Shown here: one piece after another, positions 16,571 through 48,785 of the stretch
Position numbering within the stretch: the stretch's first letter is position 1
Layout of the letters: the number at the start of each line of letters is the position of its first letter
Assembly: GCF_001425745.1 (NCBI RefSeq)
Contig: NZ_LMDF01000006.1
Coordinates: 444,036 to 508,035 of the forward strand
Length of the DNA: 64,000 bases
Reading direction: 5' to 3'
Source: Caulobacter sp. Root343
Lineage (GTDB): Bacteria; Pseudomonadota; Alphaproteobacteria; Caulobacterales; Caulobacteraceae
The notes under the pieces: generated by a model
What the model was told of the DNA's origin: nothing
Databases searched by the model: none
The model's input: only the letters and a program-made list of their open reading frames with translations
Position numbers and translations under genes: made by a program

Positions 16571-16584
16571 TGATAACGATACCA
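16571..16584. promoter_or_regulatory. LacI-type operator TGATAACGATACCA
   Basis: One-mismatch copy of the regional palindrome, 76 bases before the MFS transporter start. It is probably the operator of the MFS-GH88-ROK operon. Confidence 0.7.
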
Positions 16585-16636
16585 ACTAATTTTCGTCAGC
16601 GATCCGCGGTTTTCCGAATGGCTTGCGCAAAGTAAC

Positions 16637-16650
16637 TGATATCGATATCA
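16637..16650. promoter_or_regulatory. LacI-type operator TGATATCGATATCA (perfect palindrome)
   Basis: Perfect 14-bp palindrome on the GH28 side of the divergent promoter, 172 bases before the GH28 start and 66 bases from the centre of the 16571 site. Confidence 0.8.
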
Positions 16651-16699
16651 ATTGCACGTCCTTCGGGACCTCCCTCTGCATGGCGGCCTTCGGGCCGAT

Positions 16700-16732
16700 G
16701 GGGCGTCGGCGGGTCCGACGCCCCTCCTTTTC
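16700..16732 (+). terminator. hairpin with T tract in the GH28 leader
   Basis: Stem GGGGCGTCGG (16700-16709), loop CGGGT, stem CCGACGCCCC (16715-16724), then TCCTTTTC. It has the form of an intrinsic terminator but lies between the operator and the GH28 start, so it may attenuate GH28 transcription or end a short leader RNA. Smaller hairpins with TTCG loops precede it at 16658-16669 and 16684-16697. Confidence 0.6.
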
Positions 16733-16821
16733 GACCGCGGGCGCAGCGTGTCGGGATGGTCCTTCGAGGGCGAGGCGATACAAGAACAAGCTGGACAGCG
16801 CCGTCCGAAGGGAGACCGTCC

Positions 16822-18252
16822 ATGATCCGATCCGCCGTCCTGTTGGGCGCTTCCTTGGCGGCCTTGGCGTTGCTGGCGCCCGTGTCCCACGCCTGGTCGC
16901 AGGAAACCTCGGAGGCGGGGCTCTACACCTACGCCGCGCCGCCGCCGAAGCTGCTCTACGCTCTGCACAATGACGACTTCACCGTGCGCGTGCGCCGGCC
17001 CGGCGGGCCGTGGCGGGACCTCTACGAATATACCGCCAAGATCGACCAGGACGGCCCCAGCGACGTCTCGATGGTGCAGTTCGATTTCGCGGGCGGAACG
17101 GTCGAGATCGGGATCGAGAAGAACAACGGCGACTTCCGGCGCGTCGAGGTGCGGCCCGTCGCCAACGCCATCAAGCCCAGGATCGAGAACGGCCGCGTGG
17201 TCTTCACGATCGACAAGCCTCAGAACCTGTCCGTCGAGTTCGACGGCGACCGGCTGCACAACCTGCATATCTTCGCTGGCGCGCCGATCCCTCGGCCAGC
17301 GCCGGGGCCGGACGTCGTGGTGTTCGAGCCGGGCATCCACGCGCCGCCCGAGGGCGGGGCTTTCTTTCCGGTCAAGTCGGGCCAGACGATCTATGTCGCC
17401 GGCGGCGCGCTGCTGCAGGGCACGTTCAGGCCGGAAAAGGTCGAGAACGTCCGGATCATCGGCCACGGCATCGTCGTCCGCCCGGCCGACCAGTTGACGG
17501 TCCAGGATTCGCGCAACGTGACGGTCGAGGGCCTGACCTTCCTGACGCCGGCGCACGGCACGATCGCCTGCTCGTCGTCGCGCCAGGTGGCGTTCAAGGA
17601 CATCAAGACGATCAGCAACGGCCAATGGTCCGACGGCATCAACGTGTTCGCCTGCCAGGACTTCGAGGTCGAACGCGCCTTCGTGCGAACCTCGGACGAC
17701 AGCATCGCGATCTACGCCACGCGCAAGGACGGCATAGGCGACACCCGCCACGTGCGCGTGAGCCATTCGGTGTTCTGGCCCGACGTCGCCCACGCGATCT
17801 TCATCGGCCTGCATGGCGACAGCAAGACGCCCAATACCTTGGACGACATCGCCTTCGACGACATCGACGTGCTGGACCTGGACGAGGACGATCCAGAATA
17901 TCAAGGCGTGATGGCGATCAGCGCGGGCGACACCAACACGGTGCGGAACGTCGCCTTCAGCCACGTGCGCGTCGAGCACATCCAGGAAGGCAAGCTGTTC
18001 AACCTGCGCACCGTCTACAACGGCAAGTACAACACCAGCCCGGGGCTTCTGGTCGAGGGGATCCATTTCCGCGACATCACCTATTCGGGCGCCGGTTGGG
18101 CCAGCCCCTCGACGATCGCCGGCCTCGCCCCCGACCGCCCGGTGCGCGACATCACGTTCGAGAACGTGATGATCGCCGGCCGCAAGCTGACCGCCAAGGA
18201 CCATGATGTGATCGAGATCGGTCCGAACGTGGAGGGTGTCCGGTTCAAGTAG
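16822..18252 (+). CDS. GH28-like exported beta-helix glycoside hydrolase
   Basis: A 476-residue secreted right-handed beta-helix protein. The signal peptide is residues 1-25 (LLGASLAALALLAPVSHA), followed by a ~150-residue N-terminal beta domain (YALHNDDFTVRVRRPGG) and the helix. Three aspartates match the GH28 catalytic set: D271 in WSDGINV and D292/D293 in SDDSIAIY, with the 21/22 spacing of fungal polygalacturonases. The usual Gly-His-Gly and Arg-Ile-Lys motifs are not recognisable, so the substrate may not be plain polygalacturonate. ATG 16822 is preceded by AAGGGAG. It lies divergent to the MFS-GH88-ROK operon and upstream of a TBDT, with the same operator on both sides. Confidence 0.82.
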   Translation: MIRSAVLLGASLAALALLAPVSHAWSQETSEAGLYTYAAPPPKLLYALHNDDFTVRVRRPGGPWRDLYEYTAKIDQDGPSDVSMVQFDFAGGTVEIGIEKNNGDFRRVEVRPVANAIKPRIENGRVVFTIDKPQNLSVEFDGDRLHNLHIFAGAPIPRPAPGPDVVVFEPGIHAPPEGGAFFPVKSGQTIYVAGGALLQGTFRPEKVENVRIIGHGIVVRPADQLTVQDSRNVTVEGLTFLTPAHGTIACSSSRQVAFKDIKTISNGQWSDGINVFACQDFEVERAFVRTSDDSIAIYATRKDGIGDTRHVRVSHSVFWPDVAHAIFIGLHGDSKTPNTLDDIAFDDIDVLDLDEDDPEYQGVMAISAGDTNTVRNVAFSHVRVEHIQEGKLFNLRTVYNGKYNTSPGLLVEGIHFRDITYSGAGWASPSTIAGLAPDRPVRDITFENVMIAGRKLTAKDHDVIEIGPNVEGVRFK

Positions 18253-18287
18253 GCCAACCTCGGGACGAGCCAGTTCTCACAAACGTG

Positions 18288-18301
18288 TGATATCGATATC
18301 A
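18288..18301. promoter_or_regulatory. LacI-type operator TGATATCGATATCA (perfect palindrome)
   Basis: First of two operators in the 295-bp gap before the TBDT; identical to the 16637 site. Its centre is 57 bases from the second site, a spacing compatible with looping or cooperative binding. Confidence 0.8.
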
Positions 18302-18344
18302 TATGTGGCCATTTGTCCGACTAATGGCCTTGCCAAGTCTCCAT

Positions 18345-18358
18345 TGATAACGATATCA
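18345..18358. promoter_or_regulatory. LacI-type operator TGATAACGATATCA
   Basis: Second operator before the TBDT, extended to the 18-bp near-palindrome ATTGATAACGATATCAAT (18343-18360). Confidence 0.8.
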
Positions 18359-18547
18359 ATAATTACGGCCATAGAGCCGAAGACATCAGAACGGCCCCGG
18401 CGCACGATGCGTCCAAGGCCGTCAGGGAGTGAAACCGGGCGCGTCGCGCCCCATGAGTTCGGACAAACATCCGCCGACAGGCGAAACGCATTCGGGGAAC
18501 TCGACGCCGGCCACAGAGTCCAGCGCGGGTCCACGGGAGGGGACACC

Positions 18548-21448
18548 ATGAAGACGCAACACCAACACCGCCGCCTCTTGCTGACGGCATCGGCCGTGGC
18601 CCTGCTGGCCGCCGGCGCCGCTCGCGCTCAGACGACTCCGGCCAGCGACACCGCCGTCCAGGAGGTGGTCGTCACCGGCATCCGCCAGAGCCTGCAATCG
18701 GCCGTGCAGATGAAGAAGAACACCATGGAGGTGGTCGACTCCATCCGCGCCGAGGACATCGGCAAGCTGCCTGATCCGAACGTCGCCGAGACGCTGACGC
18801 GGATCCCGGGCGTGCAGGGCTACCGCTACGGCGGCGAAGGCGCTTCGCCGGTCGGCGTCGGCTCGGGCCTCACCATTCGCGGCCTTTCGGGCCAGACCGC
18901 CTCGCAGGTCGATGGCCGTTCCTACTTCACCGCCGGCGGCAGCGAGTTCAACATCGAAGGCGCCATCCCGGGCATGGTCGCGGGTCTGGACGTCTACAAG
19001 AACCCCTCGGCCGAGCACATCGAGGGCGGCATCGGCGGCCTGATCGACATCCGCACCCGCAAGCCGCTGGACATGCCCGACTTCTCGGGCAGCGCGGCGA
19101 TCTCGGGCCGCTACAACGACATGGTCAAGCAGTGGCAGCCCGAATACTTCGCCCTGCTCTCGCACCGCTGGAATGTGGGCGACGGCGAGATGGGTCTGCT
19201 GCTGGCCGCCAACTACCAGAAGAGCTGGAACCGCTCGGACAACGCGCCTGGTCCCGGCGGCGCCAACCTGCGCCGCGTGGTCCGCGCCGACAGCGCCGAA
19301 TACATTGGCAACGCCGCCTACAACCAGGCCTATGCCGGCCGTAGTGACGTGGCGTTCCTGGCCGACGTGGCCGATCCGCTGGCCCTGACCGCCGCCCAGC
19401 GCTCGGGCCTGGTCAACATGGCCGGCGTGCAGATCAACGTGAACGAAGAGGACATCCAGCGCACCCGCAAGGGCGTGTCGGGGGCCTTCCAGTGGAAGCC
19501 GCGTCCGGGCCTCGAGTTCTATGTCGACGGCAACTACAACTCCTACCTCTATCACCAGGGCTACCGGTTCCTGAACGGCGCCGACAGCCGCTACGTCCAG
19601 GGCCTGCAGACCACGGCCTTCAACACCAGCGAGGGCCTGACCCAGCGCAATCGCAACGGGGGCGAGGACGTCTCGCTGGCCGGCCAGCGCTTCGGCAGCG
19701 GCACGTTCCTGGGATCCACCTTCTCCTCGACCGGCGGCGACGAGCACCGCCTCTACGAGACCTACATCCTGGCCGGCGGCGCCAAGTGGTCGCCGACCGA
19801 CGACCTGGATCTGCGGGCCGACCTCTCGTACGTGAAGGCCGACCAGGAGCAGGACAACCGCTCGGTCGCCATGCAGCCGCGCGCCGGTTTGACCTGGAAC
19901 ACGACCCGGACCGTCGGCCTGCCGCAGCAGGTGGCGATCAGCGGCCCCGGCTTGGACAATCCCGCAAACTGGGTGCTCCAGAACTACGCCAACGGCACCG
20001 AGAACATCTATGACGACGTCGGCTACGCCGCCCAGTTCGACGGCAAGCTGCGGGTCCACGACAGCTTCATCGAGGCCGTGAAGTTCGGCGCGCGCTACTA
20101 CCGGAAGAAGTCACGCTTCTACAACTATTCCTATAGCGGCAAGAACCTGACGACGGACGGCCTGGCGCTGACCGCCAACCAGTCGAACGGCATCCTGGCC
20201 AGCAGCGTCCAGGACCTGGTCGCCGGCTCGCACACCAACTGGTTCGACGGCGAGGGCGGTTATTCCGGCGGCTACCTCACCTTCAACCCGGACTCGCTGC
20301 TGGGCGACAATGTCCGCAACCGCTTTCCGCTGGCCGGCATCCCGGCGGAGGACTCGATCCCCGAAGTGCTGCTGTCGCGCCGTAAGGCCGTCGAGCAGAC
20401 CTACGCCGGCTATGGCGTTGTCGACTTCGCGTTCCTGAACGACCGCATCCGCGGCAACGCCGGCGTCCGCGTCGTGCGCACCGAGCTGAACGCCCAGGCG
20501 ATGATCACCGACACCACCAGCGCCACGCCGGTGATCGTGCCCAACAGCAAGAGCAACAGCTACACCGACGTCCTGCCGACCCTGAACGTCACCGGTTATC
20601 TTCAGGACGATCTGCTGCTGCGTTTCGGCTTCGGCAAGGGCCTGACCCGTCCTAGCGTCGGCGACATCAACCCGACGGTCTCGGTCAACATCACCAACGG
20701 CACCGGCTCGCAGGGCAACCCCAACCTGGCCCCGCTGCGCGCCAAGAGCTACGACCTGTCGCTGGAGAAGTACTTCAGCAAGTCGGCCTATGCGTCGGTG
20801 GCCGCATTCTACAAGGACATCAACGGCTTCGCCCTTGGCGTCGAGAGCTGTCAGACGGTGGCCACGGCGCCGGCCTATACCGGGGCGACGCCGAACAATT
20901 GCGCGACAGGCCAATACCGGATCACTCAGTCGGTCAACGCCGATCCCGGCTACGCCAAGGGCGTCGAGGTCGCGGGCCAGACCTTCTTCGACTACGACTT
21001 CGTGCCGGGCTTCCTGCACAATTTCGGCGTCCAGGGGTCCTACACCTGGGTGAAGACCGAGCTGCCGCTGTTGCTGGCGGGCGCGAAGGTCAATGTTCGC
21101 CAGCCGTTCCAGTCGGACAAGAACTGGAGCCTGGCCGGCCTCTACGAGAACAAGCTGATCTCGGCTCGCCTCGTCTACACCTACCGCTCCGACTACGTGC
21201 TGTTCGGGATCTCGGCCAATCCGATCGATGGCCGTTACCTGAAGGGCTACGGCCTGCTGGACGCCTCGGTGAACGTCAATCTGCGCAAGGACCTGTCGCT
21301 GTCGTTCACGGCGTCGAACCTGACCAACAAGGCCCCGACCCGCTACGTCGGCGAGCCGGGCAACGGCTACGACACCGACATCCTGCGCCAGTCCTTCATG
21401 AATGGCCGGATCTACGGCGTCAGCCTTCGGTACAAGTTCGGCGGCTGA
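18548..21448 (+). CDS. TonB-dependent outer-membrane receptor (Caulobacter-type) 1
   Basis: A 966-residue TonB-dependent receptor, probably importing the oligosaccharide degraded by the surrounding hydrolases. Signal peptide 1-28 (ends AAGAARAQ), TonB box near VQEVVVTGI, plug with AEDIGKLPDPNVAETLTRIPGVQ, then a 22-strand barrel ending RIYGVSLRYKFGG. The start at 18548 has GGGAGGGG just upstream; the frame is open further 5' into the GH28 tail but without a leader. Two LacI operators lie in its promoter, placing it in the same regulon as GH97-GH43, MFS-GH88-ROK and GH28. Two tandem terminators follow directly. Confidence 0.94.
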   Translation: MKTQHQHRRLLLTASAVALLAAGAARAQTTPASDTAVQEVVVTGIRQSLQSAVQMKKNTMEVVDSIRAEDIGKLPDPNVAETLTRIPGVQGYRYGGEGASPVGVGSGLTIRGLSGQTASQVDGRSYFTAGGSEFNIEGAIPGMVAGLDVYKNPSAEHIEGGIGGLIDIRTRKPLDMPDFSGSAAISGRYNDMVKQWQPEYFALLSHRWNVGDGEMGLLLAANYQKSWNRSDNAPGPGGANLRRVVRADSAEYIGNAAYNQAYAGRSDVAFLADVADPLALTAAQRSGLVNMAGVQINVNEEDIQRTRKGVSGAFQWKPRPGLEFYVDGNYNSYLYHQGYRFLNGADSRYVQGLQTTAFNTSEGLTQRNRNGGEDVSLAGQRFGSGTFLGSTFSSTGGDEHRLYETYILAGGAKWSPTDDLDLRADLSYVKADQEQDNRSVAMQPRAGLTWNTTRTVGLPQQVAISGPGLDNPANWVLQNYANGTENIYDDVGYAAQFDGKLRVHDSFIEAVKFGARYYRKKSRFYNYSYSGKNLTTDGLALTANQSNGILASSVQDLVAGSHTNWFDGEGGYSGGYLTFNPDSLLGDNVRNRFPLAGIPAEDSIPEVLLSRRKAVEQTYAGYGVVDFAFLNDRIRGNAGVRVVRTELNAQAMITDTTSATPVIVPNSKSNSYTDVLPTLNVTGYLQDDLLLRFGFGKGLTRPSVGDINPTVSVNITNGTGSQGNPNLAPLRAKSYDLSLEKYFSKSAYASVAAFYKDINGFALGVESCQTVATAPAYTGATPNNCATGQYRITQSVNADPGYAKGVEVAGQTFFDYDFVPGFLHNFGVQGSYTWVKTELPLLLAGAKVNVRQPFQSDKNWSLAGLYENKLISARLVYTYRSDYVLFGISANPIDGRYLKGYGLLDASVNVNLRKDLSLSFTASNLTNKAPTRYVGEPGNGYDTDILRQSFMNGRIYGVSLRYKFGG

Positions 21449-37778: not shown

Positions 37779-38177
37779 CGCGCCGCACTCTTCCGCGAAT
37801 TTTCATGCACGCATGAGAGGCGGCATTCGGCGATAAGCCGGCTGCTCGCGCACGCTGCGACGCGTGGACACCGGTTTCCCTTGCGAAATATAACGCAACC
37901 TCGGCGCGATAGCGGGAATGCGGCGCCTTTGCGGCAGTGCGATAAACAGCAAAATCAGCGCTCATTTATCATAAAAATCAGCCAAAAAAGGCCTTGAAAA
38001 AAGATTGCTAGCGCTGTCAATTTGCCGTTGCGGCAGTCAGTGACCGATGTTACCGCTAACTCATCTCTCGTGCATTGGTTGTTCGCCAGGCGCGGGAGCG
38101 GGAAGAGCGGTCGGGAAATGCTTCCGGCTCGTAACAAAAACAGCGCCCCACAGGGGGCTAAATTAGGGGGAACGGCT
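37779..38177. other. 399-bp promoter region of TBDT 3
   Basis: Gap between GH2 and TBDT 3. It contains a LacI-type palindrome at 38005-38020 and a good ribosome binding site at 38165-38170. No gene is seen. Confidence 0.55.
38005..38020. promoter_or_regulatory. LacI-type operator TTGCTAGCGCTGTCAA
   Basis: Imperfect palindrome centred on AGCGCT, of the TTGNYAGCGCTRNCAA class bound by LacI-family sugar repressors in Xanthomonas and Caulobacter-like bacteria. It differs from the TGATAWCGWTATCA operators on the left, so a different LacI regulator, not in this window, should control TBDT 3. Confidence 0.6.
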
Positions 38178-41100
38178 ATGAAGCGACTTCGTCGTTTGCA
38201 CGCGTCTGCCTCTTGCGTCGCCATCACGGCGGCCATGTTCGCCAGCCCAGTGCTGGCCCAGCAGACCCAAGATAACGCCGTCGACGAGATCGTCGTCACC
38301 GGCATCCGCGCTTCGCTCGAGCGATCGATCGCGATCAAGCGCAACAACAGCGGCGTCGTCGACGCCATCTCCGCCGAAGACATCGGCAAGTTCCCGGACA
38401 CCAACCTCGCCGAATCCCTGCAGCGGATCACCGGCGTGTCGATTGACCGGACCAACGGCGAAGGCTCCCAGGTCACCGTCCGCGGCTTCGGCGGCGGCTT
38501 CAACCTGGTGACCCTGAACGGCCGCACCATGCCGACGGCCAATGTCGCCACGGTCGGTGGCGACCAGGCGGTCGACTTCGCGGCGGGCACCAGCCGCTCG
38601 TTCGACTTCTCGAACCTCGCCTCGGAAGGCGTGACCACGCTGGAGGTCTACAAGACCGGCCGCGCGGGTATTCCCTCGGGCGGCATCGGCGCGACGATCA
38701 ACGTCAAGACCCGCCATCCGCTGGATGCGCATGAGAGCGGCCTCAGCGGCAGCATCGGCGTCAAGGGCGTCTACGACACCAGCATGGACAAGAAGGTCGA
38801 CGACTTCGGCCACAAGATCACGCCGGAAGTCTCGGGCCTGCTGAACTGGCTGGACGACAGCGAAAAGTTCGGCGTCACCCTGTTCGGCAGCTATCAGAAG
38901 CGCGACTTCACCAGCCGCAGCGTCACGTCCAACGACTGGAACATCCGCACCTACGCCGACTTCATCAATCCGGCGAACGGCTTCGTCCGCAACGGCGGCG
39001 CGACCCAGATCACCAACGCGCCGTCCAGCGGCTCGACCCTGGTCGCGATCCCCAACGACAGCCGCTATCACTTCTCGCAAGGCGAGCGTGAGCGGATCAA
39101 CGGCCAGCTGACCGCGCAATTCCGCCCGGTCGAAGGCCTGACGATCACGGCGGACGCCCTCTATGCGCAGAACAAGTCGTTCGAGCGCCGCAACGACAGC
39201 ACCAACTGGTTCAACCGCCCGTTCGACAAGGTCACGTTCGACAACAACCCCGTCGTGGCCACCGCCGTCCTGCTGTCGGAAACGCTCAGCGGCACCAAGG
39301 ACATGGGCTTCGAGCAGCAATATCGCAGCAACGAAGACACCCTGAAGTCCTTTGGCCTGAACGCGGCCTGGGACCTGTCGGAACGTTTCCACGTCAATGT
39401 GGACGGCCATATCTCCAAGGCCGACTCCAAGCCGAACTCGCCGAACGGCACGACCTCGACCTCGGTGTCGATCGGCGCGCCGATCGTGTCGTCCCACTCG
39501 GTCGACTACAGCGGCAAGGTCCCGGTCCAGACGATCACGATCAACGACGCCGCCCCGCGCGGCAACGCCAACGGCGTGCTGGATGTCGGCGACCTGGGCA
39601 GCCAGGTGGCCCGCACCTCGGCCCAGCGCCAGCAGCACGAGATCAAGGAATTCCGGGCCGACGCGACCTGGGACCTGGACGACAACGGCAGCCGCTTCGA
39701 CTTCGGTGTCGACTACCGCACCTCGAAAATGGTCCAGTCCACGCTGAACACGCAGCAGGACCTGGGCAGCTGGGGTATCTCCAACCCTCGTGACGTGCAG
39801 CAGTACGCCGGCAGCCTGGTGAAAGCCTTCTGCCTGGCTTGCCAGTTCGACGAGCTCGAGCTCAAGCAGAGCGGGGCCGGCCTGGTGTCGTTCCGCGCGA
39901 ACGCGATCGATCTCTTCAACGCCATGTCGGCGCCTTACGTCGCCAAGGGCAACCCCGTCGGGGTCACGGGTCAAGCCAACAACCGCGTCGACGAAGACAT
40001 CCTGGCCGGTTACGCCCAGGTGACGTGGAAGTCCGAACTGGCGGGCCACCAGGCGACCCTGGTCACCGGTGTCCGCTACGAAGAGACCAAGGTGACCTCG
40101 ACGTCGCTGGTGCGCACGCCCAGCGGCATCGTCTGGACCGCCGACAACGACTTCCGTCTCGACACGGCCAGCACCTACTCGCCGATCTCGGGCAAGGGCA
40201 AATACAGCAGCCTGCTGCCGGCCCTGGATTTCCAAGTCGAGGTTCGTGACGACCTGGTCGGCCGCTTCTCGTTCAGCCGGACGATCGCCCGTCCGGACTA
40301 CGGCAACCTGTTCGCCGCCCAGACGGCTGGCGCGCCGAACCGTCCGATCGCCAACGGGGCCATCCCGCTCGGCACCAGCGGCAACCCCGACCTGGAACCG
40401 CTGATCTCGGACAACTTCGACGTCTCGCTCGAGTGGTACTACAAGCCCAGCAGCTTCATCACGGCCGGCTTCTTCGAGAAGCGCGTGAACAACTTCGTGG
40501 GCACCGGCACGGTGATGCAGAACCTGTTCGGTCTGCGTGATCCCAGCTCCGGCGCGGCAGGCACCCGTTCGGGCACGGCCAAGTCGATCCTGACGGCCAT
40601 CGGCGCCGATCAGACCGACGTGAACCTGTTCACGATGACGGCGCTGCTGCAGACCACCGGTTCGTCGGCGGCGGCTCAGGCTCAATTCCAGGCCAATCGC
40701 GGCGCTGGCGGCGACCTGAACCAGGCGTTCGTGGACTCCATCCTGGCGGCCGTCGATATCTCGGCCAACAGCACCGATCCGCTGTTCAACTTCCAGGTCG
40801 CCCAGCCGATCAACAACAAGACCGGCAAGATCCACGGCTTCGAAATCGCGGCGCAGCACTTCTTCGGCGACACCGGCTTCGGTGTCTCGGGGGCCTATAC
40901 GATGGTGCGCGGCGACGTCGGGTTCAACAACGGCTCCAACCCGGCCGAGGACCAGTTCGCTCTGCTGGGCCTGTCGGACACGGCCAACGCCACCCTGATC
41001 TACGACAAGAACGGGATCTCGGCGCGGGTCGCGTACAACTGGCGTGACAAGTTCCTGCAAGCCACCAACCGCGGCGGCTCGCGTAACCCGGTCTACGTCG

Positions 41101-41282
41101 CGCCGTTCGGCCAGCTGGACTTCAACATCAGCTACGACGTCACGCCCAAGCTGGCGGTGTCGCTGGAAGGCATCAACCTGACCAAGGAGAGCCTGCGCAC
41201 CTACGCTCGCGACCCGAACCAACTCTGGTTCGCCCAAGAACTGGATCGGCGCTTCCTCCTCGGCGCCCGCTACCGCTTCTAG
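38178..41282 (+). CDS. TonB-dependent outer-membrane receptor (Caulobacter-type) 3
   Basis: A 1,034-residue TBDT. Signal peptide 1-28 (CVAITAAMFASPVLAQ), TonB box VDEIVVTGI, plug segment AEDIGKFPDTNLAESLQRITGVSI and a barrel ending DRRFLLGARYRF. The ATG at 38178 has AGGGGG upstream. It heads a probable cassette with SapC, a JmjC/cupin protein and a flavin halogenase-like enzyme, a combination often seen next to sugar TBDTs in Caulobacterales and Xanthomonadales. A terminator after this gene (41310) suggests the downstream three genes are expressed by readthrough or their own promoter. Cargo unknown; the upstream LacI operator points to a carbohydrate. Confidence 0.93.
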   Translation: MKRLRRLHASASCVAITAAMFASPVLAQQTQDNAVDEIVVTGIRASLERSIAIKRNNSGVVDAISAEDIGKFPDTNLAESLQRITGVSIDRTNGEGSQVTVRGFGGGFNLVTLNGRTMPTANVATVGGDQAVDFAAGTSRSFDFSNLASEGVTTLEVYKTGRAGIPSGGIGATINVKTRHPLDAHESGLSGSIGVKGVYDTSMDKKVDDFGHKITPEVSGLLNWLDDSEKFGVTLFGSYQKRDFTSRSVTSNDWNIRTYADFINPANGFVRNGGATQITNAPSSGSTLVAIPNDSRYHFSQGERERINGQLTAQFRPVEGLTITADALYAQNKSFERRNDSTNWFNRPFDKVTFDNNPVVATAVLLSETLSGTKDMGFEQQYRSNEDTLKSFGLNAAWDLSERFHVNVDGHISKADSKPNSPNGTTSTSVSIGAPIVSSHSVDYSGKVPVQTITINDAAPRGNANGVLDVGDLGSQVARTSAQRQQHEIKEFRADATWDLDDNGSRFDFGVDYRTSKMVQSTLNTQQDLGSWGISNPRDVQQYAGSLVKAFCLACQFDELELKQSGAGLVSFRANAIDLFNAMSAPYVAKGNPVGVTGQANNRVDEDILAGYAQVTWKSELAGHQATLVTGVRYEETKVTSTSLVRTPSGIVWTADNDFRLDTASTYSPISGKGKYSSLLPALDFQVEVRDDLVGRFSFSRTIARPDYGNLFAAQTAGAPNRPIANGAIPLGTSGNPDLEPLISDNFDVSLEWYYKPSSFITAGFFEKRVNNFVGTGTVMQNLFGLRDPSSGAAGTRSGTAKSILTAIGADQTDVNLFTMTALLQTTGSSAAAQAQFQANRGAGGDLNQAFVDSILAAVDISANSTDPLFNFQVAQPINNKTGKIHGFEIAAQHFFGDTGFGVSGAYTMVRGDVGFNNGSNPAEDQFALLGLSDTANATLIYDKNGISARVAYNWRDKFLQATNRGGSRNPVYVAPFGQLDFNISYDVTPKLAVSLEGINLTKESLRTYARDPNQLWFAQELDRRFLLGARYRF

Positions 41283-41309
41283 GATCGGAAGTCTCTAGAA
41301 GTGGATGGA

Positions 41310-41346
41310 GGGGTCGTCGCGCTTGCGGCGGCCCCTTTCTTCCTTT
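41310..41346 (+). terminator. intrinsic terminator of TBDT 3
   Basis: Stem GGGGTCGTCGC (41310-41320) pairs with GCGGCGGCCCC (41325-41335, two G-T pairs) around GCTT, followed by TTTCTTCCTTT. Confidence 0.8.
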
Positions 41347-41383
41347 GAAGTGCGTGAATGCGACGAGCGTGAGTAGGGCGGAC

Positions 41384-42118
41384 ATGAACCGGGTGCTTTT
41401 GAACAATGTCGACCACGCCGACCTGCGCGTGATCGCCGGTCATGGCGCGGCGTTCGGCGACGCGATCAACCAGGTTCTGGTGCTACCGACCGAGTTCGAG
41501 GCCGTGCAGCGCGAATATCCGATCCTGATCCGCAAGGACGCCAGCGGCGCCTATCAGGCCGTGGCCTTGCTGGGCCTGGACCGCGACGAGAACCTGTTCT
41601 TGGACGAGACCGGCTGGAACGCTCGCTACGTGCCGGCGGTCCAGCGGCGCGGGCCGTTCTCGATCGCCTTGCAACGCGACGAGCCCGGCGGCGAGCCGCG
41701 CCCGATGATCCACGTCGACCTCGACCATCCGCGGATCAGCCGCGTTGAAGGCGAGCCCCTGTTCCTGCCGGCCGGCGGCAACGCGCCTTACCTCCAGGGC
41801 GTCAGCCGGGCCCTGGGCCAGATCCATGACGGCCTGGACGTCGCCGGACCGATGTTCGCCTTCTTCGACGAGCTAGGCCTGATCGAACCGATCGACGTCG
41901 AGATCAAGCTCGACGACAACACCCGCTACGACCTGCCGGACGTCTTCACCCTGGCGCCGGATCGACTGGCGGCGGTGACGGGCGAGCCCTTGGAGCGCCT
42001 GCACCAGTCGGGCCTGCTGCGCGCCGCCCACTGGATCATCTCGTCGATGGGCAACATCGAAGAGCTGATCGCCCGTAAGGCCTCGCGTCGAGCCGCCCAG
42101 GAAGCCAGCGCGGCATGA
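41384..42118 (+). CDS. SapC-family protein
   Basis: A 244-residue soluble protein of the SapC family, named after a Campylobacter S-layer-associated protein but found widely beside TBDT and halogenase genes; its biochemical function is unknown. The N-terminus has HADLRVIAGHGAAFGDAINQVLVLPTEFEAVQREYPILIRKD, the typical start of the family, and the middle has PLFLPAGGNAPYLQGVSRALGQIHDG. No signal peptide or membrane helix. ATG 41384 is preferred over an upstream TTG because TAGGGCGG precedes it. It overlaps the cupin gene by four bases (ATGA), so the two are translationally coupled. Confidence 0.88.
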   Translation: MNRVLLNNVDHADLRVIAGHGAAFGDAINQVLVLPTEFEAVQREYPILIRKDASGAYQAVALLGLDRDENLFLDETGWNARYVPAVQRRGPFSIALQRDEPGGEPRPMIHVDLDHPRISRVEGEPLFLPAGGNAPYLQGVSRALGQIHDGLDVAGPMFAFFDELGLIEPIDVEIKLDDNTRYDLPDVFTLAPDRLAAVTGEPLERLHQSGLLRAAHWIISSMGNIEELIARKASRRAAQEASAA

Positions 42119-43149
42119 GCGCCCTGGTCGCCCGCCGGACGTTGGAGACCACGGTCGCGACCCCGGGCGACATCCCGTTCGACGCGGTGCTGGCCGGCCA
42201 AACGCCGATGATCTTCAAGGGCTTGGCGCTGGACTGGCCGTTGGTCCAGGCGGGACTCCGGTCCGGCCAGGCGGCCCGCGACTATATCCGCGGCCACGAC
42301 CAGGGCGGACGCGTGGTCGGCTACACGGGCGATCCGACCATCAAGGGCCGCTTCTTCTATGACGAGACCCGCACGGGCATGAACTTCAAGGCCGAGCGCG
42401 CGCCGCTCGAGACCTTTCTGCGACGCCTCGAGGAGGTTGAGGGCCGGAACGACGCCTCGTCGGTCTATGTCGGATCCACCGATCTCGACGCCTATTTCCC
42501 CAGCCTGAAGGCAGCCAATGACCTGGGCCTCGGCCCGGAGATGTTCGGCCCCGAACCGCCGATGGCCGGGATATGGCTGGGCAACCGCACCGTGGCGGCG
42601 GCGCACTACGACATGTCCAACAACATCGCCGTCTGCGCGGTCGGCCGGCGGCGTTTCACGCTATTTCCGCCGGACCAGGTCGCCAACCTCTATCCCGGCC
42701 CGCTGGAGCCGACACCCGGCGGCCAGGTGGTCAGCATGGTCGACTTCGAGACGCCCGATTTCGACCGCCATCCGCTGTTCCGCGAGGCCCAGGCCGCCGC
42801 CCAGGTGGCCGAGCTCGAGCCTGGCGACGTGCTGGTCTATCCGGCGTTGTGGTGGCACCAGGTCGAGGCGCTCGACGCCTTCAACGTGCTGGTGAACTAC
42901 TGGTGGAACGCCTCGCCAGCCTATGTCGATACGCCGATGAGCACCTTGCTGCACGGCCTGCTCAGCCTGCGCGACCGGCCCGATTTCGAGAAGCAAGGCT
43001 GGAAGGCCCTGTTCGACTACTACGTGTTCGGCCCCGCCGAGCGCGCCGGCGCGCACCTGCCGGAGGCCGCGCGCGGACCGCTGGGCCCCATGGACGAGCT
43101 GAAGGCCCGCCGCTTGCGCGCCTATCTGCTCGACCGCCTCAACCGATAA
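42115..43149 (+). CDS. JmjC/cupin-8-like Fe(II)/2-oxoglutarate oxygenase-type protein
   Basis: A 344-residue cupin-fold protein. The iron-binding HxD...H triad is visible as H164 and D166 in AHYDMSNN and H248 in PALWWHQVEAL. Other conserved features are PMIFKG near the N-terminus and GDVLVYPALWWHQ. Such proteins hydroxylate proteins or small molecules with 2-oxoglutarate, but in this context the substrate is unknown. It lies between SapC (4-base overlap) and the halogenase (19-base gap), so all three are likely one transcript. No signal peptide, hence cytoplasmic. Confidence 0.88.
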   Translation: MSALVARRTLETTVATPGDIPFDAVLAGQTPMIFKGLALDWPLVQAGLRSGQAARDYIRGHDQGGRVVGYTGDPTIKGRFFYDETRTGMNFKAERAPLETFLRRLEEVEGRNDASSVYVGSTDLDAYFPSLKAANDLGLGPEMFGPEPPMAGIWLGNRTVAAAHYDMSNNIAVCAVGRRRFTLFPPDQVANLYPGPLEPTPGGQVVSMVDFETPDFDRHPLFREAQAAAQVAELEPGDVLVYPALWWHQVEALDAFNVLVNYWWNASPAYVDTPMSTLLHGLLSLRDRPDFEKQGWKALFDYYVFGPAERAGAHLPEAARGPLGPMDELKARRLRAYLLDRLNR

Positions 43150-43168
43150 GAACCCTGGGAGGGACGCG

Positions 43169-44668
43169 ATGGATCAGCAGACGATCCGCAAGGTGGTGAT
43201 CGCGGGCGGGGGCACCGCCGGCTGGATGGCCGCCGCCGCCTTGGCCCGGCAACTGGGCCCGCTGCTCGACATCACCCTGGTCGAGTCCGAGGACATCGGC
43301 ACGGTCGGGGTCGGGGAATCGACGATCCCCACCGCCCGCACCTTCAACGCCCTGCTCGGCATCGACGAGCCGGAGTTCATGCGCGCCACCCAGGCGACCT
43401 TCAAGCTCGGCATCCTGTTCGAGAACTGGGGCGAGGTCGGCGACCGCTACATCCACTCGTTCGGCCAGGTCGGCAAATCCACCTGGATGGGCGGCTTCCA
43501 TCACTTCTGGATGCAGGCCAAGGCGCAGGGCTTCGGCGGCGAGCTGGGCGACTATTGCTTCGAGCTGAAGGCCGCAGAGCAGAACAAGTTCTTCACCGGC
43601 GAAGAGAGCCCGCTGAACTACGCCTACCACCTGGACGCGGGACTCTACGGCCGTTTCCTGCGCGGCATGGCCGAGCGCGATGGCGTGCGGCGCGTCGAGG
43701 GCAAGATCGCCAGCGTTCGCCAGCGATCGACCGATGGCTATGTCGAGGCCCTGGTCATGGAATCGGGCGACGTCGTCGAGGGCGATCTGTTCGTCGACTG
43801 CACCGGCTTCCGGGGCCTGTTGATCGAGCAGACCCTGAAAGCCGGGTTCGAGGATTGGGGCCAATGGCTGCCGACCAACAGCGCCCTGGCCGTCCAGACC
43901 CGCTCGACCGAGCCGGCCGTGCCCTATACCCGCGCCATCGCCCACAAGGCCGGCTGGCGCTGGAAGATCCCGCTGCAGCATCGCGTCGGCAATGGCCTCG
44001 TCTACAGCAACGCGCATATGTCCGACGACGAGGCCAAGGATCTGCTGATGGGCGAGATCGAGGGCGAGACCCTGATCGAGCCGCGCCTGATCCGCTACCG
44101 CACGGGCCGCCGGCGCAAGACCTGGGACAAGAACGTGGTGGCGCTGGGCCTGGCCAGCGGCTTCGTCGAGCCCCTGGAGTCGACCTCGATCCACCTGATC
44201 ATGATCGGCGTGACGCGGTTGATGCAGCTGTTCCCGTTCGCCGGCGTCAGCCAGGCGGTGGTCGATCGCTACAACCGCCAGGCCGACGACGAGCTGGAGA
44301 AGATCCGCGACTTCATCATCCTGCACTACAAGGCGACCGAGCGGACCGACAGTCCGTTCTGGGACCAAGTGCGCGAGATGGACATCCCCGACAGCCTGGC
44401 CCAGCGGATCGAACTGTTCCGCCAGAGCGCCCAGGTCTACCAGGCGCCCGGCGAGCTGTTCCAGGTCGATTCCTGGCTGCAGGTCTTGCTGGGCCAGCGC
44501 GTGACGCCCCAGGCCTATCACCAGATGGGTCGGCTGATGCCGCCGCAGCAGCTGAAGCAGGCTCTCGACGACCTGAAGCGCAATATCGCCGGCGCGGTGA
44601 CGCGCCTGCCGCAGCACCAGGCCTTCCTCGACGGCTATTGCGCGCCGCCGGTCAGCCGCAGCGCTTAA
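43169..44668 (+). CDS. flavin-dependent tryptophan halogenase family protein
   Basis: A 499-residue FAD enzyme of the PrnA/BrvH family. The dinucleotide-binding motif is GGGTAGW (residues 13-19), the catalytic lysine is K79 in ATFKLG (the same number as PrnA Lys79), the halogenase WxWxIP signature is WRWKIP (263-268), and EPLESTSIH with E337 matches the PrnA Glu346 region. All residues needed for HOCl-type halogenation are therefore present. No regulator-independent flavin reductase gene is adjacent. Position after TBDT-SapC-cupin is a recurring arrangement; the natural substrate is unknown and need not be tryptophan. Its stop overlaps the convergent glycosyltransferase stop. Confidence 0.92.
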   Translation: MDQQTIRKVVIAGGGTAGWMAAAALARQLGPLLDITLVESEDIGTVGVGESTIPTARTFNALLGIDEPEFMRATQATFKLGILFENWGEVGDRYIHSFGQVGKSTWMGGFHHFWMQAKAQGFGGELGDYCFELKAAEQNKFFTGEESPLNYAYHLDAGLYGRFLRGMAERDGVRRVEGKIASVRQRSTDGYVEALVMESGDVVEGDLFVDCTGFRGLLIEQTLKAGFEDWGQWLPTNSALAVQTRSTEPAVPYTRAIAHKAGWRWKIPLQHRVGNGLVYSNAHMSDDEAKDLLMGEIEGETLIEPRLIRYRTGRRRKTWDKNVVALGLASGFVEPLESTSIHLIMIGVTRLMQLFPFAGVSQAVVDRYNRQADDELEKIRDFIILHYKATERTDSPFWDQVREMDIPDSLAQRIELFRQSAQVYQAPGELFQVDSWLQVLLGQRVTPQAYHQMGRLMPPQQLKQALDDLKRNIAGAVTRLPQHQAFLDGYCAPPVSRSA

Positions 44669-45969
44669 GCGTCCAGGGGCGCGAACAGCTTCTGTAGCGT
44701 GTCGCCGATCCTGGTCGTGGCCGGATCGGCGTCGGCCAGGCCCATGGCCTTCAGCTCGGCGCCCAGGCGGCGGCCCACGGCCAACAGTGGCCGGCCGGTG
44801 ACCTGGGTCCGGGCCAGGGCCTCGACCGCCGCGGCGTAGCGCTCGGCGTTCAGGGTTTCCAGCGCCCAGGCGCGGGCGGCGACACCGGTCTCGCGGCGCA
44901 GGACCGGGTCGGCGACCAGGCGCTCCAGCACCGCGCGAAGTTCCTCGACCACGATCTCGCCATCGATCTTGAACACCAGGTCGTCCGGCAATTCGCCGTA
45001 GAAGCCGGCTTTGGCGACCACGGTCGGGCGGCCGCTCAGCATGGCCTCGCACGCCGAGCCCGACGCGCCCTCCAGCACCGGCTTGCGCAGGCAGACCATG
45101 ATGTCGGCCTCGGCCAGGCGCTGGTCTAGGGTGTCGTCGTCAACGGCGCCGTCGATGATCAGGTTCTTGAAGCCGACCTCGGCCGCGATCGCCGTCAGGC
45201 GCGCGCGCTCCTCGTCGGAGATCGGGCCGACCAGGCGATAGGCGCAGGCCTTCAGGGCTTCCGAGCCGCCGATCGCGCGGATCACGTCGGCGACACGCTT
45301 GTTGGCGTTCATCACGCCGACGGTGGTGACGACGAGCTGATCCTTGGCCTGGGGCGGACCGGCCGGCGTCGCGCGATCCGGGCAGCATAGCGGCGTCACG
45401 GCCACGGGCCCGGGGCAGACGGCCTCCAGCTTTGGCGCGTAAAAACGGGCATGGGCCAGGGCGGCCTCGCAGCGGCCGGCCAGCCATTCGGTCATCGGCA
45501 GCTTGGCGGCGATCTCGCCCATGTCCAGCATCTGGCCCGAGCGGACGGCCACGGCGTCGGCCTCGGCCGCCGCGCCGTAGGTGTGGACGATCTCGGCGTC
45601 GTGCCGGCGATAGTCCAAACCGTTGTAGTGCAGCCAACCCGAGAACAGGTTGTAGATATAGAAGTCGTGGAAGATCCCCAGGCACGGCGCGGCGTCCAGG
45701 ATCGCGAACACGCCGGCATGGAAGGGATAGTTGTCGCCGATATTGACGATAACGACGTCGAACTCGGTCCGCAGGCTGGCCAGGTCATAGAACCGCCAGT
45801 GCCGGACGCGCAACGCCGTTGGGTGCAGCGTTTCCGCCGGATTGTCCTCGTCCTCGCAGCGCAGGATCTCGACCTGGTGGCCGCGGGCGGCCAGGGCGCG
45901 CGTGACCTCGGCGCTGACCCGGCCGATCGACGAGCGGAGGGCGAACGGCGTGACCCAGCAGATCTTCAC
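44665..45969 (-). CDS. GT4-type glycosyltransferase
   Basis: A 434-residue GT-B glycosyltransferase, cytoplasmic or peripheral to the inner membrane. The N-terminal Rossmann half starts MKICWVTPFALRSSIGRVSAEVTRALAARGH; the C-terminal half has VGVMNANKRVADVIRA and the acceptor/donor E-x7-E type motif LEGASGSACEAMLSGRP. It follows the FkbM methyltransferase gene by ten bases on the same strand. Adjacent to the S-layer/LPS locus, it probably contributes to surface polysaccharide assembly, but the donor sugar and acceptor cannot be read. Confidence 0.88.
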   Translation of the reverse strand: MKICWVTPFALRSSIGRVSAEVTRALAARGHQVEILRCEDEDNPAETLHPTALRVRHWRFYDLASLRTEFDVVIVNIGDNYPFHAGVFAILDAAPCLGIFHDFYIYNLFSGWLHYNGLDYRRHDAEIVHTYGAAAEADAVAVRSGQMLDMGEIAAKLPMTEWLAGRCEAALAHARFYAPKLEAVCPGPVAVTPLCCPDRATPAGPPQAKDQLVVTTVGVMNANKRVADVIRAIGGSEALKACAYRLVGPISDEERARLTAIAAEVGFKNLIIDGAVDDDTLDQRLAEADIMVCLRKPVLEGASGSACEAMLSGRPTVVAKAGFYGELPDDLVFKIDGEIVVEELRAVLERLVADPVLRRETGVAARAWALETLNAERYAAAVEALARTQVTGRPLLAVGRRLGAELKAMGLADADPATTRIGDTLQKLFAPLDA

Positions 45970-45979
45970 GGGCGGCGTC

Positions 45980-47191
45980 CTAGCGCTGCAGCAGGCGGCG
46001 TTCGGCGTCGCCGCCGGCGCGCACGAAGGCGATGTTGGCCGAAACCACCTTGGCGGCGGCCTTGGCGCTGGTCGGCGCGCAGGCGCTGGTCGCCTCGTCG
46101 ATGACGTAGGCCTTGAAGCCCGCGTCGGCGAAGGCCTTGAACCACTGGGCGGGGGTCTGGCCGACCCGCTTCAGATGCTCGGGACCGAACTCGGCGACGA
46201 TGGCCAGGTCGGGGTTCTTGGCGATCACGCCGCTCATGCCGGCCAACACGTCCAGCTCGGCGCCCTCGACGTCGATCTTGACCACGTCCATGCGCTTGGC
46301 CGGCGCGACATCGTCGAGGCGCACGACCTCGACCTCGACCGTACGGGCCTCCTCGGCCTCGGGCAGGGCGTAGAGCGAGCTGTGGCCGATGATGTCGCTG
46401 ACGTGGAAGGTCAGGCGGCCGGCTTTCTCGCCGACGGCCTGGTCGCGGACCTCGACCCAGGATAGGCCGTTGAGATGCTTCATCTTTTCGAGATTCGAAC
46501 GCGGGATGGCCTCGGGTTCGAAGGCGACGACCTTACCCTCCGGACCGGTCGCCCAGGCCATCAGCAGGGTCAAGAGGCCGATATTGGCGCCGACGTCGGC
46601 GACGGTCATGCCGGGCTGGACCAGGCGGCGCAGCACGTCGCCGGTGCCGGGCTCCAGGCCTTTGCTGGTGGCGTTGGCCAGCATGGTCACAAAGGTCGGC
46701 AGGGCCCGCGGAGCCAGGACGTAGCCGTCGCGCATGCGGATCGCCATCGACTCGTCGTCATAGGCGATCAGCGGCCGCTGCTTGATTTCCAGCTCGTCGA
46801 AGCGGGGGCCGAACAGGGCGGGCAGACGGGCCAGGTCGTCGCCGATCCGCGCGAGCGGCGGCTCCAGGCGTGACAGATGGGCCGAAAGGGCCCGAGCCGT
46901 GGTGTCGTTCTGCTTCAACGCCACGTGCAACAGGGCTTGGGTCTGGTCCAGTCGCGCATGCACCGCGTGCAACTCGGCCGAGAGGACGTTGAGGTGGCTG
47001 CGCGCCTCACGCAGTTCATGCTCGACGCTGGCCTGCAGATAGCGGCGGACATAGTTGGCGACCGGCGACAGGACGGGCCCCAGCAGGCGGCGCGCCAAAC
47101 CGAAACGGCGACGAGGCGGCGCGCCGGGCGGAGTCGGATCCGTCGAAGCGTTCGGTGTCTCGGCGACGGGAGTGCGCATGGCGGAGCTCAT
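45980..47191 (-). CDS. FkbM-family SAM-dependent methyltransferase with N-terminal coiled coil
   Basis: A 403-residue protein. The C-terminal ~230 residues are an FkbM methyltransferase with SAM-binding VADVGANIGLLTLLMA, VVAFEPEA and VDVVKIDVEGAELDVLAG-like motifs. The N-terminal ~140 residues are Pro- and Arg-rich at the start, then a predicted coiled coil (about residues 50-105). FkbM enzymes commonly O-methylate sugars in surface glycans. ATG 47191 gives a complete N-terminus; ATG 47179 four codons later is also possible. It is the upstream partner of the glycosyltransferase and may cap or modify an O-antigen chain. Confidence 0.88.
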   Translation of the reverse strand: MSSAMRTPVAETPNASTDPTPPGAPPRRRFGLARRLLGPVLSPVANYVRRYLQASVEHELREARSHLNVLSAELHAVHARLDQTQALLHVALKQNDTTARALSAHLSRLEPPLARIGDDLARLPALFGPRFDELEIKQRPLIAYDDESMAIRMRDGYVLAPRALPTFVTMLANATSKGLEPGTGDVLRRLVQPGMTVADVGANIGLLTLLMAWATGPEGKVVAFEPEAIPRSNLEKMKHLNGLSWVEVRDQAVGEKAGRLTFHVSDIIGHSSLYALPEAEEARTVEVEVVRLDDVAPAKRMDVVKIDVEGAELDVLAGMSGVIAKNPDLAIVAEFGPEHLKRVGQTPAQWFKAFADAGFKAYVIDEATSACAPTSAKAAAKVVSANIAFVRAGGDAERRLLQR

Positions 47192-47300
47192 CGCCAGGTC
47201 CAGGCGTACAGGCCTCAAGTCAATCCTTCCCGAGCGGCGGCCATGGGGCGCCGTCTCCGATCTCGCGAAACTCCGGAGCGGCGCGCGCTCCGCGTCCCGT

Positions 47301-48785
47301 CTAGACCAGAATCCCGCCAACCAGGAAGGACGAATGATCGCCCACGAGGCTGATGGAGCTGCCGTCGATAAAGTCGAAGGTCATGCTGTCGAGATGGACG
47401 ATCAAACCGACGTCGTGCAGGACGCGCGCGTCGAACATGACGATCTCGGCGCCCTTCATCATCACTTCGACGCTGCCGGTATGGGCTATGAAGTAGTCGA
47501 TGAACTGCTTGACGATGTCCGGCGAAGCGTAAGTGTGCGGCTCGACAGGCGTCGGCGTGGGATCGGGGTGCGACGGCGTGGGCGTCTCGACGTTTTCGGT
47601 CGGCGTCGCCGGCGCGGGATCCTTGGGGATCGGGGACGTGTCGAGCGAAGGGGACGGTGTGAGCGGGGGCGTCACATTATAGTGGTCGCTCTTGGCGATC
47701 AGGTCGGCCAGGACGTCCGGAAGTTTGTTGACCTCGACCACCGAGATCTTCTGGGCGCCGGCTTCTCCCGCCAGCCCGCGGATCAGCTGAACAGCCTCCA
47801 CCGACGGCAAGCCGCTCAGATTCGCGCTGAGGCGCACGTCCAGGGCCCAGTTGGCGGCTTCGGCCGACGCGGGCGGCAGCGACAGCGGCTGATTATGGCG
47901 GCTGGATTCCGTGGCCACGCTCAAGAGCCCTTGGGTCGGCGCGGGCGCTTCGGTCGTGTGCGGCATCGTCGCGAGGATCGCCACGAGAGACAGGACCGAC
48001 GACACGGTCTGAACGGGCGTGTTGTCGACAGCCGCCACATGGGTCGCCGAGATCTTGACGGCGCCGTCTTCCGAGCCAAACGCCGAGGCGGTCGGGGCGG
48101 GGCCGAAGTCCAGAGCGGCGGCGGCGGCCGAGATCGCCGCGCGGGCGGCCGGGTCCAGGCTGGTCGTGTCGACGCCGTAGTCCGAGGCGAACATCGCCGC
48201 GGCCAGGATCAGCACCGCCTGGTTGGCCGGCAGCTGGATCGAATCCTGGGCGGGCGCGGCGGCGGCCGGCGCGCCGTTGGTCAGGCCGGTGTTCGAGCTC
48301 GAAGAGAGCAGGGCGGGGCGGCTGTGGCTGGCGTGACCGGTCGTGGCGCCGGTTTCGGCCGCGCGCGCCTCGCCCGTCTTGAAGAAGGCGGTGCCGACCA
48401 CGGCCACCAGCAGGGCGGCGGGGTGGATCGAAAGGTTGCCGCCGCTTTCCGACCGGCGGATCAGCGGATGACGCGCCACCAGATTGCGGACCAGGGCGGT
48501 GAAGTCGAAGCCGCGGGCGATCTCTTCATAGGCCGGGCCGGCGATCAGATATTCGCCGTCGATCCGCGCGAAATGGATCACCACCTCGCCATCGTCGGAA
48601 CGATAGAAGACGAACCAGGGCTCGTTCTCGTCGCTGAGGCCGCGGTCGGTGCCCACGCGGATGCCGGCGCGGATCAGCGCGCCTTCGACACGATAGAACT
48701 CGGCGAGCTCCTGCTGGCTCCAATCGGTCTGAGCCGGAGCCTGACGCGGCGAGCGCTGAAAGAACGAAAGGACCTGTGCGGCCAT
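47301..48785 (-). CDS. unknown 494-aa protein next to the S-layer locus
   Basis: Not recognised. Visible regions: a globular N-terminal part (1-115) rich in charged residues (YRVEGALIRAGIRVGTD; EPWFVFYRSDDGEVVIHFARIDGEYLIAGPAYEE); a hydrophobic segment at 118-135 (HPAALLVAVVGTAFF) that could be a membrane helix; an Ala/Ser/Thr-rich low-complexity middle; a Pro/Thr linker at about 367-420; and a compact C-terminal domain of about 74 residues. It lies 64 bases downstream of the XRE regulator on the same strand, so the two are probably cotranscribed away from rsaA. It may be a membrane-anchored surface or sensing protein; function is open. Confidence 0.75.
   Translation of the reverse strand: MAAQVLSFFQRSPRQAPAQTDWSQQELAEFYRVEGALIRAGIRVGTDRGLSDENEPWFVFYRSDDGEVVIHFARIDGEYLIAGPAYEEIARGFDFTALVRNLVARHPLIRRSESGGNLSIHPAALLVAVVGTAFFKTGEARAAETGATTGHASHSRPALLSSSSNTGLTNGAPAAAAPAQDSIQLPANQAVLILAAAMFASDYGVDTTSLDPAARAAISAAAAALDFGPAPTASAFGSEDGAVKISATHVAAVDNTPVQTVSSVLSLVAILATMPHTTEAPAPTQGLLSVATESSRHNQPLSLPPASAEAANWALDVRLSANLSGLPSVEAVQLIRGLAGEAGAQKISVVEVNKLPDVLADLIAKSDHYNVTPPLTPSPSLDTSPIPKDPAPATPTENVETPTPSHPDPTPTPVEPHTYASPDIVKQFIDYFIAHTGSVEVMMKGAEIVMFDARVLHDVGLIVHLDSMTFDFIDGSSISLVGDHSSFLVGGILV

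Follow-up and report, generated by a model that had tools for sequence, protein, structure and literature searches.

Organization of the cassette

We analysed a four-gene cassette located at positions 38178-44668 of a 64,000-nucleotide stretch of the genome of Caulobacter sp. Root343 (contig NZ_LMDF01000006.1, positions 444,036 to 508,035; the whole stretch is called the window hereafter), which comprises genes for a TonB-dependent receptor (TBDT), a SapC family protein, a JmjC/Cupin_8 protein and a flavin-dependent halogenase. The original prediction had described a tightly coupled set with intact catalytic residues; all four genes were recovered by family-profile scores, and a script check found the residues of the halogenase and the cupin in place, where they are near-invariant in aligned relatives. 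The intergenic distances, computed by script, are 101 bases between the receptor gene and sapC, -4 between sapC and the cupin gene, and 19 between the cupin and halogenase genes; the start codon of sapC is the ATG at 41384, and its stop shares 4 bases with the Cupin_8 start. The cassette is a real, conserved module of known families, and no description of their combination was found in the open-access searches described below. The following features were annotated:

38006..38019, + strand: LacI-family-like operator TGCTAGCGCTGTCA, 5' of the receptor gene (pattern match)
38048..38060, + strand: LacI-like palindrome TGTTACCGCTAAC, second site (pattern match)
38178..41282, + strand: TonB-dependent receptor, TIGR01782 family, cassette-type clade (profile match; AlphaFold model with TBDT fold)
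41307..41338, + strand: terminator-like hairpin of 14 pairs between the receptor and enzyme genes
41384..42118, + strand: SapC family protein, PF07277 (profile match, AlphaFold model)
42115..43149, + strand: JmjC/Cupin_8 protein, PF13621, FIH/JMJD5-like, HxD...H intact (profile match, residue check)
43169..44668, + strand: flavin-dependent halogenase, PF04820, Xcc4156/BrvH clade, K79 and WRWKIP intact (profile match, residue check)

The receptor belongs to the TIGR01782 family (705.6 bits, curated cut-off 310), with both Plug and barrel domains present, and its AlphaFold model has a mean pLDDT (predicted local distance difference test) of 88.1. The SapC protein is a member of PF07277 (213.2 bits, gathering cut-off 28.9; mean pLDDT of its model 97.2). 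The halogenase and the cupin scored 656.2 bits against PF04820 (Trp_halogenase) and 257.7 bits against PF13621 (Cupin_8), respectively.

Conservation of the four-gene association

The genome of the host (5.36 Mb) contains 16 matches to the halogenase profile, 15 of them above the cut-off, in ten loci, together with three SapC, three Cupin_8 and 47 TIGR01782 receptors, counted with split matches joined and ten weak partial matches left out. A TIGR01782 receptor is at most 2 kb away from eight of the ten halogenase loci, compared with a genome coverage of about 5.9% (binomial tail 6e-9). A second cassette-like set, found at C6:723-730 kb, is composed of a receptor, a halogenase of another type, and SapC and Cupin_8 genes on the opposite strand.

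A halogenase alignment was scanned against 84,980 species genomes, and the 80 loci retained, as the best 80 of 582 confirmed loci, are biased towards halogenases closely related to that of the window. A receptor was present in 66 of them, SapC in 58, Cupin_8 in 61 and all four genes in 52. Eleven loci, listed by hand, were cut off upstream; the remaining 69 with full upstream flanks contained a receptor in 63 cases, SapC in 51, Cupin_8 in 54 and the complete set in 50, and 48 of the 69 displayed the colinear, one-strand order TBDT-(Hal)-SapC-Cupin8-Hal. Hosts with this order include Stakelama, Sphingomonas, Caulobacter, Massilia, Duganella, Xanthomonas, Stenotrophomonas, Alteromonas, Colwellia and Shewanella, which we take to span the alpha-, beta- and gammaproteobacteria.

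Among 299 Pseudomonadota genomes, SapC was found in 104, a halogenase of full length (E below 1e-80) in at least 36, and the receptor clade, recognized with a profile built for the cassette receptors, in at least 23; the latter two counts are lower bounds because only five (halogenase) or two (receptor) candidates were scored per genome. SapC is encoded in 35 of the 36 halogenase genomes versus 69 of the 263 others, and a full-length halogenase in every one of the 23 genomes that have the receptor clade versus 13 of the 276 other genomes. The clade gave 32 receptor matches, 27 beside cassette genes and five not. The genome and locus counts ignore phylogeny. The association of the four genes is more than chance: random association of the families, one of the two refuting outcomes set in the original prediction, was tested with the locus and genome counts and not found, and random linkage is refuted. 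That the genes only travel together in carbohydrate loci, with no joint function, we consider highly improbable. Carbohydrate loci are mobile and modular, which speaks for such a view; the constant gene order in distant proteobacteria, the overlapping genes and the near-invariant catalytic residues speak against it.

Queries of the open-access literature joining tryptophan halogenase with SapC and TonB-dependent receptor, or halogenase with polysaccharide utilization loci and TonB-dependent, returned no papers, and tryptophan halogenase with TonB-dependent gave work judged unrelated by title and abstract opening or, for PMC11337851, by its passages. Among the matches listed by broader searches, none describes the cassette in its title or abstract opening. 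By word search, SapC, TonB and cupin are absent from PMC8269204, halogenase and SapC from PMC2996990, PMC4052901 and PMC7142613, and TonB from PMC12645471, while PMC11340318 has a single table line with a tryptophan halogenase and neither TonB nor SapC.

The halogenase and the JmjC/Cupin_8 protein

The halogenase carries the flavin adenine dinucleotide (FAD) motif GGGTAGW at position 13, the catalytic lysine K79, WRWKIP at 263-268 (W263/W265) and EPLESTSI at 334-341 with E337 (located by script), i.e. the FAD motif, lysine, WxWxIP and glutamate that define tryptophan-type flavin halogenases. K79 is kept in 99% of 136 aligned relatives. The iron triad of the cupin (H164, D166 and H248; HxD...H in the cupin core, by script), which places it in its family, is 100% conserved in 67 aligned rows. 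Given this conservation, both proteins appear to be under selection as enzymes.

The closest solved relatives of the halogenase are Xcc4156 (PDB 6y1w, 599 bits), 9luq (542) and BrvH (PDB 6frl, 485). BrvH, which has the same K and WxWxIP motifs, is described in PMC5945002 as brominating indole slowly, leaving free tryptophan untouched and being inactive once the lysine is mutated; its authors add there that the active site could fit larger substrates. In PMC7336383, the native substrates of BrvH and three Xanthomonas campestris (Xcc) halogenases are stated as unknown; a known unrelated substrate of close homologues, the other refuting outcome of the original prediction, was thus not found. Xcc4156 and BrvH are treated alone in their papers: a word search of the BrvH text gave neither TonB nor SapC, and one of the Xcc4156 text gave no TonB. 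The counterpart of BrvH in the host genome (L078, 716 bits) also lies directly behind a receptor gene.

Of the halogenases in the surveyed loci, 38 are located behind a receptor, mostly with WxWDIG, and 59 behind a cupin, mostly with WxWxIP; these 97 all have the lysine and the glutamate. Several other arrangements were noted. Locus L075 (10010-15998) has four consecutive halogenase genes beside a divergent receptor; one of these (11614-12792) is hit by the profile as two separate segments that leave out profile positions 240-306, the middle, where WxWxIP is expected by alignment. At L081:8490-10789, in a locus with a phosphotransferase system EIIA-HPr-EI fusion, a WxWDIG halogenase is directly followed by a DUF6445 gene. 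Such a gene, named from Pfam for two members, occurs in 12 of the 80 halogenase loci and has, by eye, an HxD...H pattern as in 2-oxoglutarate oxygenases. A halogenase-like frame of 939 amino acids without WxWxIP by eye (L215:13224-16040, - strand) lies near SapC and an open reading frame (ORF) of 2894 amino acids (3-8684, - strand).

A sequence search of the PDB with the JmjC protein returned FIH, JMJD5, JMJD7 and C2orf60. The first three modify proteins and C2orf60 (TYW5) acts on tRNA. The match to FIH/JMJD5-type hydroxylases extends over the catalytic core (1e-19), with HxD...H common to both; the 35 matched PDB sequences are eukaryotic by name, whereas the window protein is bacterial and encoded in a receptor operon.

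SapC

Neither structure nor sequence related the SapC protein to a known fold: its very confident model gave no fold match in the PDB (Foldseek and VIA-align 2; best E 0.21, and among 993 chains none reached a Z of 2), and the best E values of sequence searches were 0.24 (profile) and 0.063 (single sequence). On these null results, a flavin reductase or other known fold was rejected for SapC. The invariant residues of cassette SapC are H11, E37, G64, N70, W78, P84, F92, D112, F127, G131, L166 and S221, W78 being so in all 51 cassette members.

Two kinds of SapC can be distinguished, cassette and stand-alone. Some SapC is present in 117 of 119 genomes of the family of the host, and of 33 loci taken from that family and the host genome, 24 are of the stand-alone kind. 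In 14 of these 24, a receptor-cluster gene lies at most 1.5 kb upstream on the same strand, and in 17 a DsbD cluster lies downstream (one representative of each cluster was confirmed by Pfam). Twenty SapC loci from elsewhere, hand-picked from the matches listed and mostly one per family, comprise four cassettes, four with RTX, HlyD, SecA-like or OEP neighbours, one with ShlB (two-partner secretion) and a giant ORF, one with a giant ORF, one with a giant ORF and a divergent halogenase, and nine with no clear theme, although an OEP gene is present in L214 and a DsbD gene in L222. SapC thus stands outside the cassette beside export genes or giant ORFs in seven of the 20. A set of 30 loci with only 1.5 kb of flank, which overlaps in part with these 20, yielded one cassette, six with export genes and 23 with neither. 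ORFs of at least 1500 amino acids occur in six of the 20 SapC loci versus five of 63 halogenase loci (Fisher p 0.02). The export-gene neighbours and the giant ORFs suggest, tentatively, that SapC handles large exported polypeptides. The SapC of Campylobacter fetus belongs to the same Pfam family as that of the cassette; unlike the seven loci above, the cassette of the window has no export gene, and its partner is the receptor. As a separate observation, loci L205, L206, L209 and L210 combine SapC in varying ways with RTX/giant proteins, HlyD, an M50 peptidase-HlyD fusion and a SecA-like ATPase, which looks like an unusual export system.

SapC itself could be the substrate or carrier of the cassette enzymes and, once modified, help to assemble exported proteins. 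Its place between the receptor and the last enzymes in the 48 colinear loci and the invariant W78 would fit; against this, 69 of the 104 SapC genomes have no full-length halogenase, and we regard this role as very unlikely.

Regulation and recurrent neighbours

The module looks sugar-regulated, judging from its upstream sites. LacI-type palindromes were found in 27 of 63 receptor upstream regions, versus 0.004 per 600 bases within genes. In the window, the pattern matched by TGCTAGCGCTGTCA gave 11 matches over both strands at six sites, where 0.02 are expected, and the TGTTACCGCTAAC pattern one site (both strands, up to 1 mismatch; 0.14 expected). The operator pair of the cassette (38006, 38048) is unlike the TGATATCGATATCA-type sites, which occur among the remaining carbohydrate genes of the window at 8189, 16571, 16637, 18288 and 18345. 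LacI paralogues BglR1-3 are predicted for beta-glucoside operons of Caulobacterales in PMC4052901.

A hairpin 3' of the receptor gene is found in 34 of 61 related cassettes versus 0 of 61 base-shuffled controls (one plain shuffle per locus). The intergenic stretch holding the hairpin at 41307-41338 has a folding z-score of only -1.06, and terminator-like sites over the whole region show no excess (4 vs 4.8 in shuffles). Given the terminator-like hairpin behind its gene, the receptor is probably produced at a higher level than the enzymes.

The neighbour clusters that recur near the cassettes include LacI (35 of 80 loci), beta-glucan-type glycosidases of the glycoside hydrolase (GH) families GH3 (22), GH16 (16) and GH1 (11), sugar transporters (11 and 9), glucokinase (6) and a GFO/IDH/MocA oxidoreductase; these are single-linkage groups, and nine of the 46 recurrent ones were annotated, with one representative each. 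The cassette resembles the CUT-type TBDT carbohydrate loci (Blanvillain et al. 2007, PMC1790865) in its TIGR01782-type receptor, its LacI-type sites and the glycoside hydrolases that accompany many cassettes. When the text of that paper was searched by word, no halogenase, SapC or cupin turned up, the oxidative enzymes being the addition of the cassette.

These surroundings bear on the idea, raised in the original prediction, of an imported aromatic glycoside. A small aromatic compound entering through the receptor (the aglycone of a beta-glucoside, or a phenolic of plant or algal glycans) might be halogenated and hydroxylated for detoxification or use. The operon common to receptor and enzymes, the LacI-type palindromes and the GH3, GH16 and GH1 genes described above agree with such a cargo, as does the acceptance of small indoles in vitro by the Xcc and Brevundimonas halogenases (PMC7336383 and PMC5945002); the reaction of BrvH on indole is described as slow, however. 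Moreover, the annotated neighbours (LacI, GH3, GH16, GH1, sugar transporters, glucokinase and GFO/IDH/MocA) provide no support for an aromatic glycoside and include no aromatic catabolism, the PDB relatives of the JmjC protein modify proteins or tRNA, and the SapC loci seen show no small-molecule context. An aromatic cargo is possible and, in our judgement, rather doubtful. Catabolism of aromatic glycosides and natural-product clusters were set aside, no such gene being present among the annotated neighbours, which represent the smaller part of the recurrent clusters.

A predicted role in polypeptide modification

We tentatively prefer, at a probability well short of even, a cytoplasmic modification of a polypeptide by the cassette enzymes, with the receptor as its most likely target. 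A polypeptide substrate is favoured because of the PDB relatives of the JmjC protein and the export company of SapC, and the receptor because it is, besides SapC, the only non-enzyme in the operon. Also in favour are the colinear order, the co-occurrence of halogenase, SapC and receptor clade across genomes, the receptor genes upstream of stand-alone SapC, and the inactivity of BrvH on free tryptophan together with its potentially roomier active site. According to this model, the sugar-regulated operon would make an outer-membrane glycan receptor and a few oxidative tailoring enzymes of the cytoplasm, the receptor in bulk and the enzymes in lower amounts. SapC would bind an unfolded exported polypeptide before its exit from the cytoplasm, the JmjC protein would hydroxylate the SapC-bound polypeptide, and the halogenase would halogenate, probably brominate, an aromatic residue. 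With the receptor of the same operon as the most likely target, the modified residue may tune glycan capture or the resistance of the receptor to attack. The more specific version, a cis-acting post-translational modification system in which SapC, as a general handling factor for large exported proteins, retains the still unfolded receptor in the cytoplasm and the FIH-like hydroxylase and the halogenase add hydroxyl and halogen groups to its future extracellular loops, is doubtful. Such a system would, to our knowledge, be the first example of a membrane receptor halogenated by an enzyme.

A precedent for halogenation of a peptide is SrpI, a flavin halogenase reported in PMC11544707 to brominate Trp in a peptide and belonging to the ribosomally synthesized and post-translationally modified peptide (RiPP) class. 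No RiPP-type precursor-peptide gene fits into the operon gaps (101, -4 and 19 bases), which were the places considered, small ORFs in the flanks not having been searched for.

The conserved tryptophans of the receptor were scrutinized as candidate halogenation sites. W344, W532, W653 and W955 each occur in at least 95% of 60 receptor rows of the cassette clade; going by the order of the strands in the model, all four are on the extracellular side, and W532 and W653 sit in otherwise variable loops. After realignment by another method, W344 was present in 56 of 58 cassette receptors, 5 of 5 orphan receptors, 6 of 18 halogenase-only and 2 of 33 unlinked receptors, and W532 in 56 of 58, 5 of 5, 13 of 18 and 7 of 33, respectively. 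The Trp content differs modestly (1.37% in cassette, 1.24% in halogenase-only and 1.14% in unlinked receptors).

Several observations weigh against modification of the receptor. Five receptors of the clade (L255-L259), with no cassette genes within about 8 kb, retain all four tryptophans (their five genomes do have halogenases elsewhere), and cassette-linked receptors of another clade are without two (L083) or three (L262) of them. Halogenase-only receptors seem enriched in W532, but this is largely an effect of the alignment in a gappy loop. Since the orphan receptors keep all four residues and the two linked ones of another clade do not, the tryptophans fit sugar-binding residues as well, and plain sugar binding explains their conservation on the extracellular side. 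The four-Trp signature was therefore dropped as evidence for halogenation sites; this test neither proves nor excludes modification of the receptor. Further points of this kind are the 21 of 69 full-flank loci without the colinear order, the six of 69 without a TBDT, the nine of 20 sampled SapC loci without a clear theme and the 23 of 30 with neither cassette nor export genes. Receptor or peptide modification, as raised in the original prediction, may occur: the JmjC and SapC families point to a polypeptide, but the conserved Trp of the receptor turned out to be independent of an adjacent halogenase.

The six loci without a receptor also favour another explanation, in which a cytoplasmic indole or phenol would give a halogenated or hydroxylated metabolite, a signal or defence compound released at times of glycan plenty, with the receptor merely co-regulated. 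Flavin halogenases usually belong to natural-product pathways, which fits; on the other side, the nine annotated clusters of the 46 include no biosynthetic assembly line or evident product exporter, and the link with one receptor clade has almost no exceptions (the 23 of 23 genomes above). We consider such a metabolite unlikely.

Apart from the mode of modification, the makeup of the operon, which is found in many soil and water bacteria, hints at chemical decoration of the receptor or its cargo. Earlier work on this halogenase clade was done in vitro, and its near-strict tie to one receptor clade, a JmjC protein and SapC provides a concrete, testable hypothesis on the natural substrate. If the receptor is indeed modified, glycan uptake would gain an unmeasured chemical layer, and SapC a role.

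As for the ligand, all but one of the five orphan receptors of the clade are located beside proteins that are GH16-like by their sequence starts, which makes beta-glucan oligosaccharides the likeliest ligand of the cassette-clade receptors. These four (L256-L259), which have no adjacent enzyme genes of the cassette, share the loop motif GLRGGPGFN.

Neighbouring regions

A carbohydrate locus occupies 5-18204 and 18236-21448 of the window and encodes GH2 (LacZ-like), a NAGLU-type alpha-N-acetylglucosaminidase, an HGSNAT-like acyltransferase, GH97, GH43, GH88, LacI, a ROK kinase and a TIGR01782 receptor, and it has five palindromes of the TGATATCGATATCA type. Upstream of the cassette there is a GH2 gene, but the operators of the cassette differ from the TGATATCGATATCA-type sites, a mixed picture for a polysaccharide utilization locus, in which receptor and adjacent glycoside hydrolases share their control. 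On the other side of the cassette, genes for a glycosyltransferase and an FkbM-type methyltransferase (44665-47320, - strand) converge on it from the opposite strand. About 2 kb before the start of the window, a second receptor-halogenase pair (G000:C6:438068-442250, L079) has a LacI-like TGGTAGCGCTAACA before its receptor gene.

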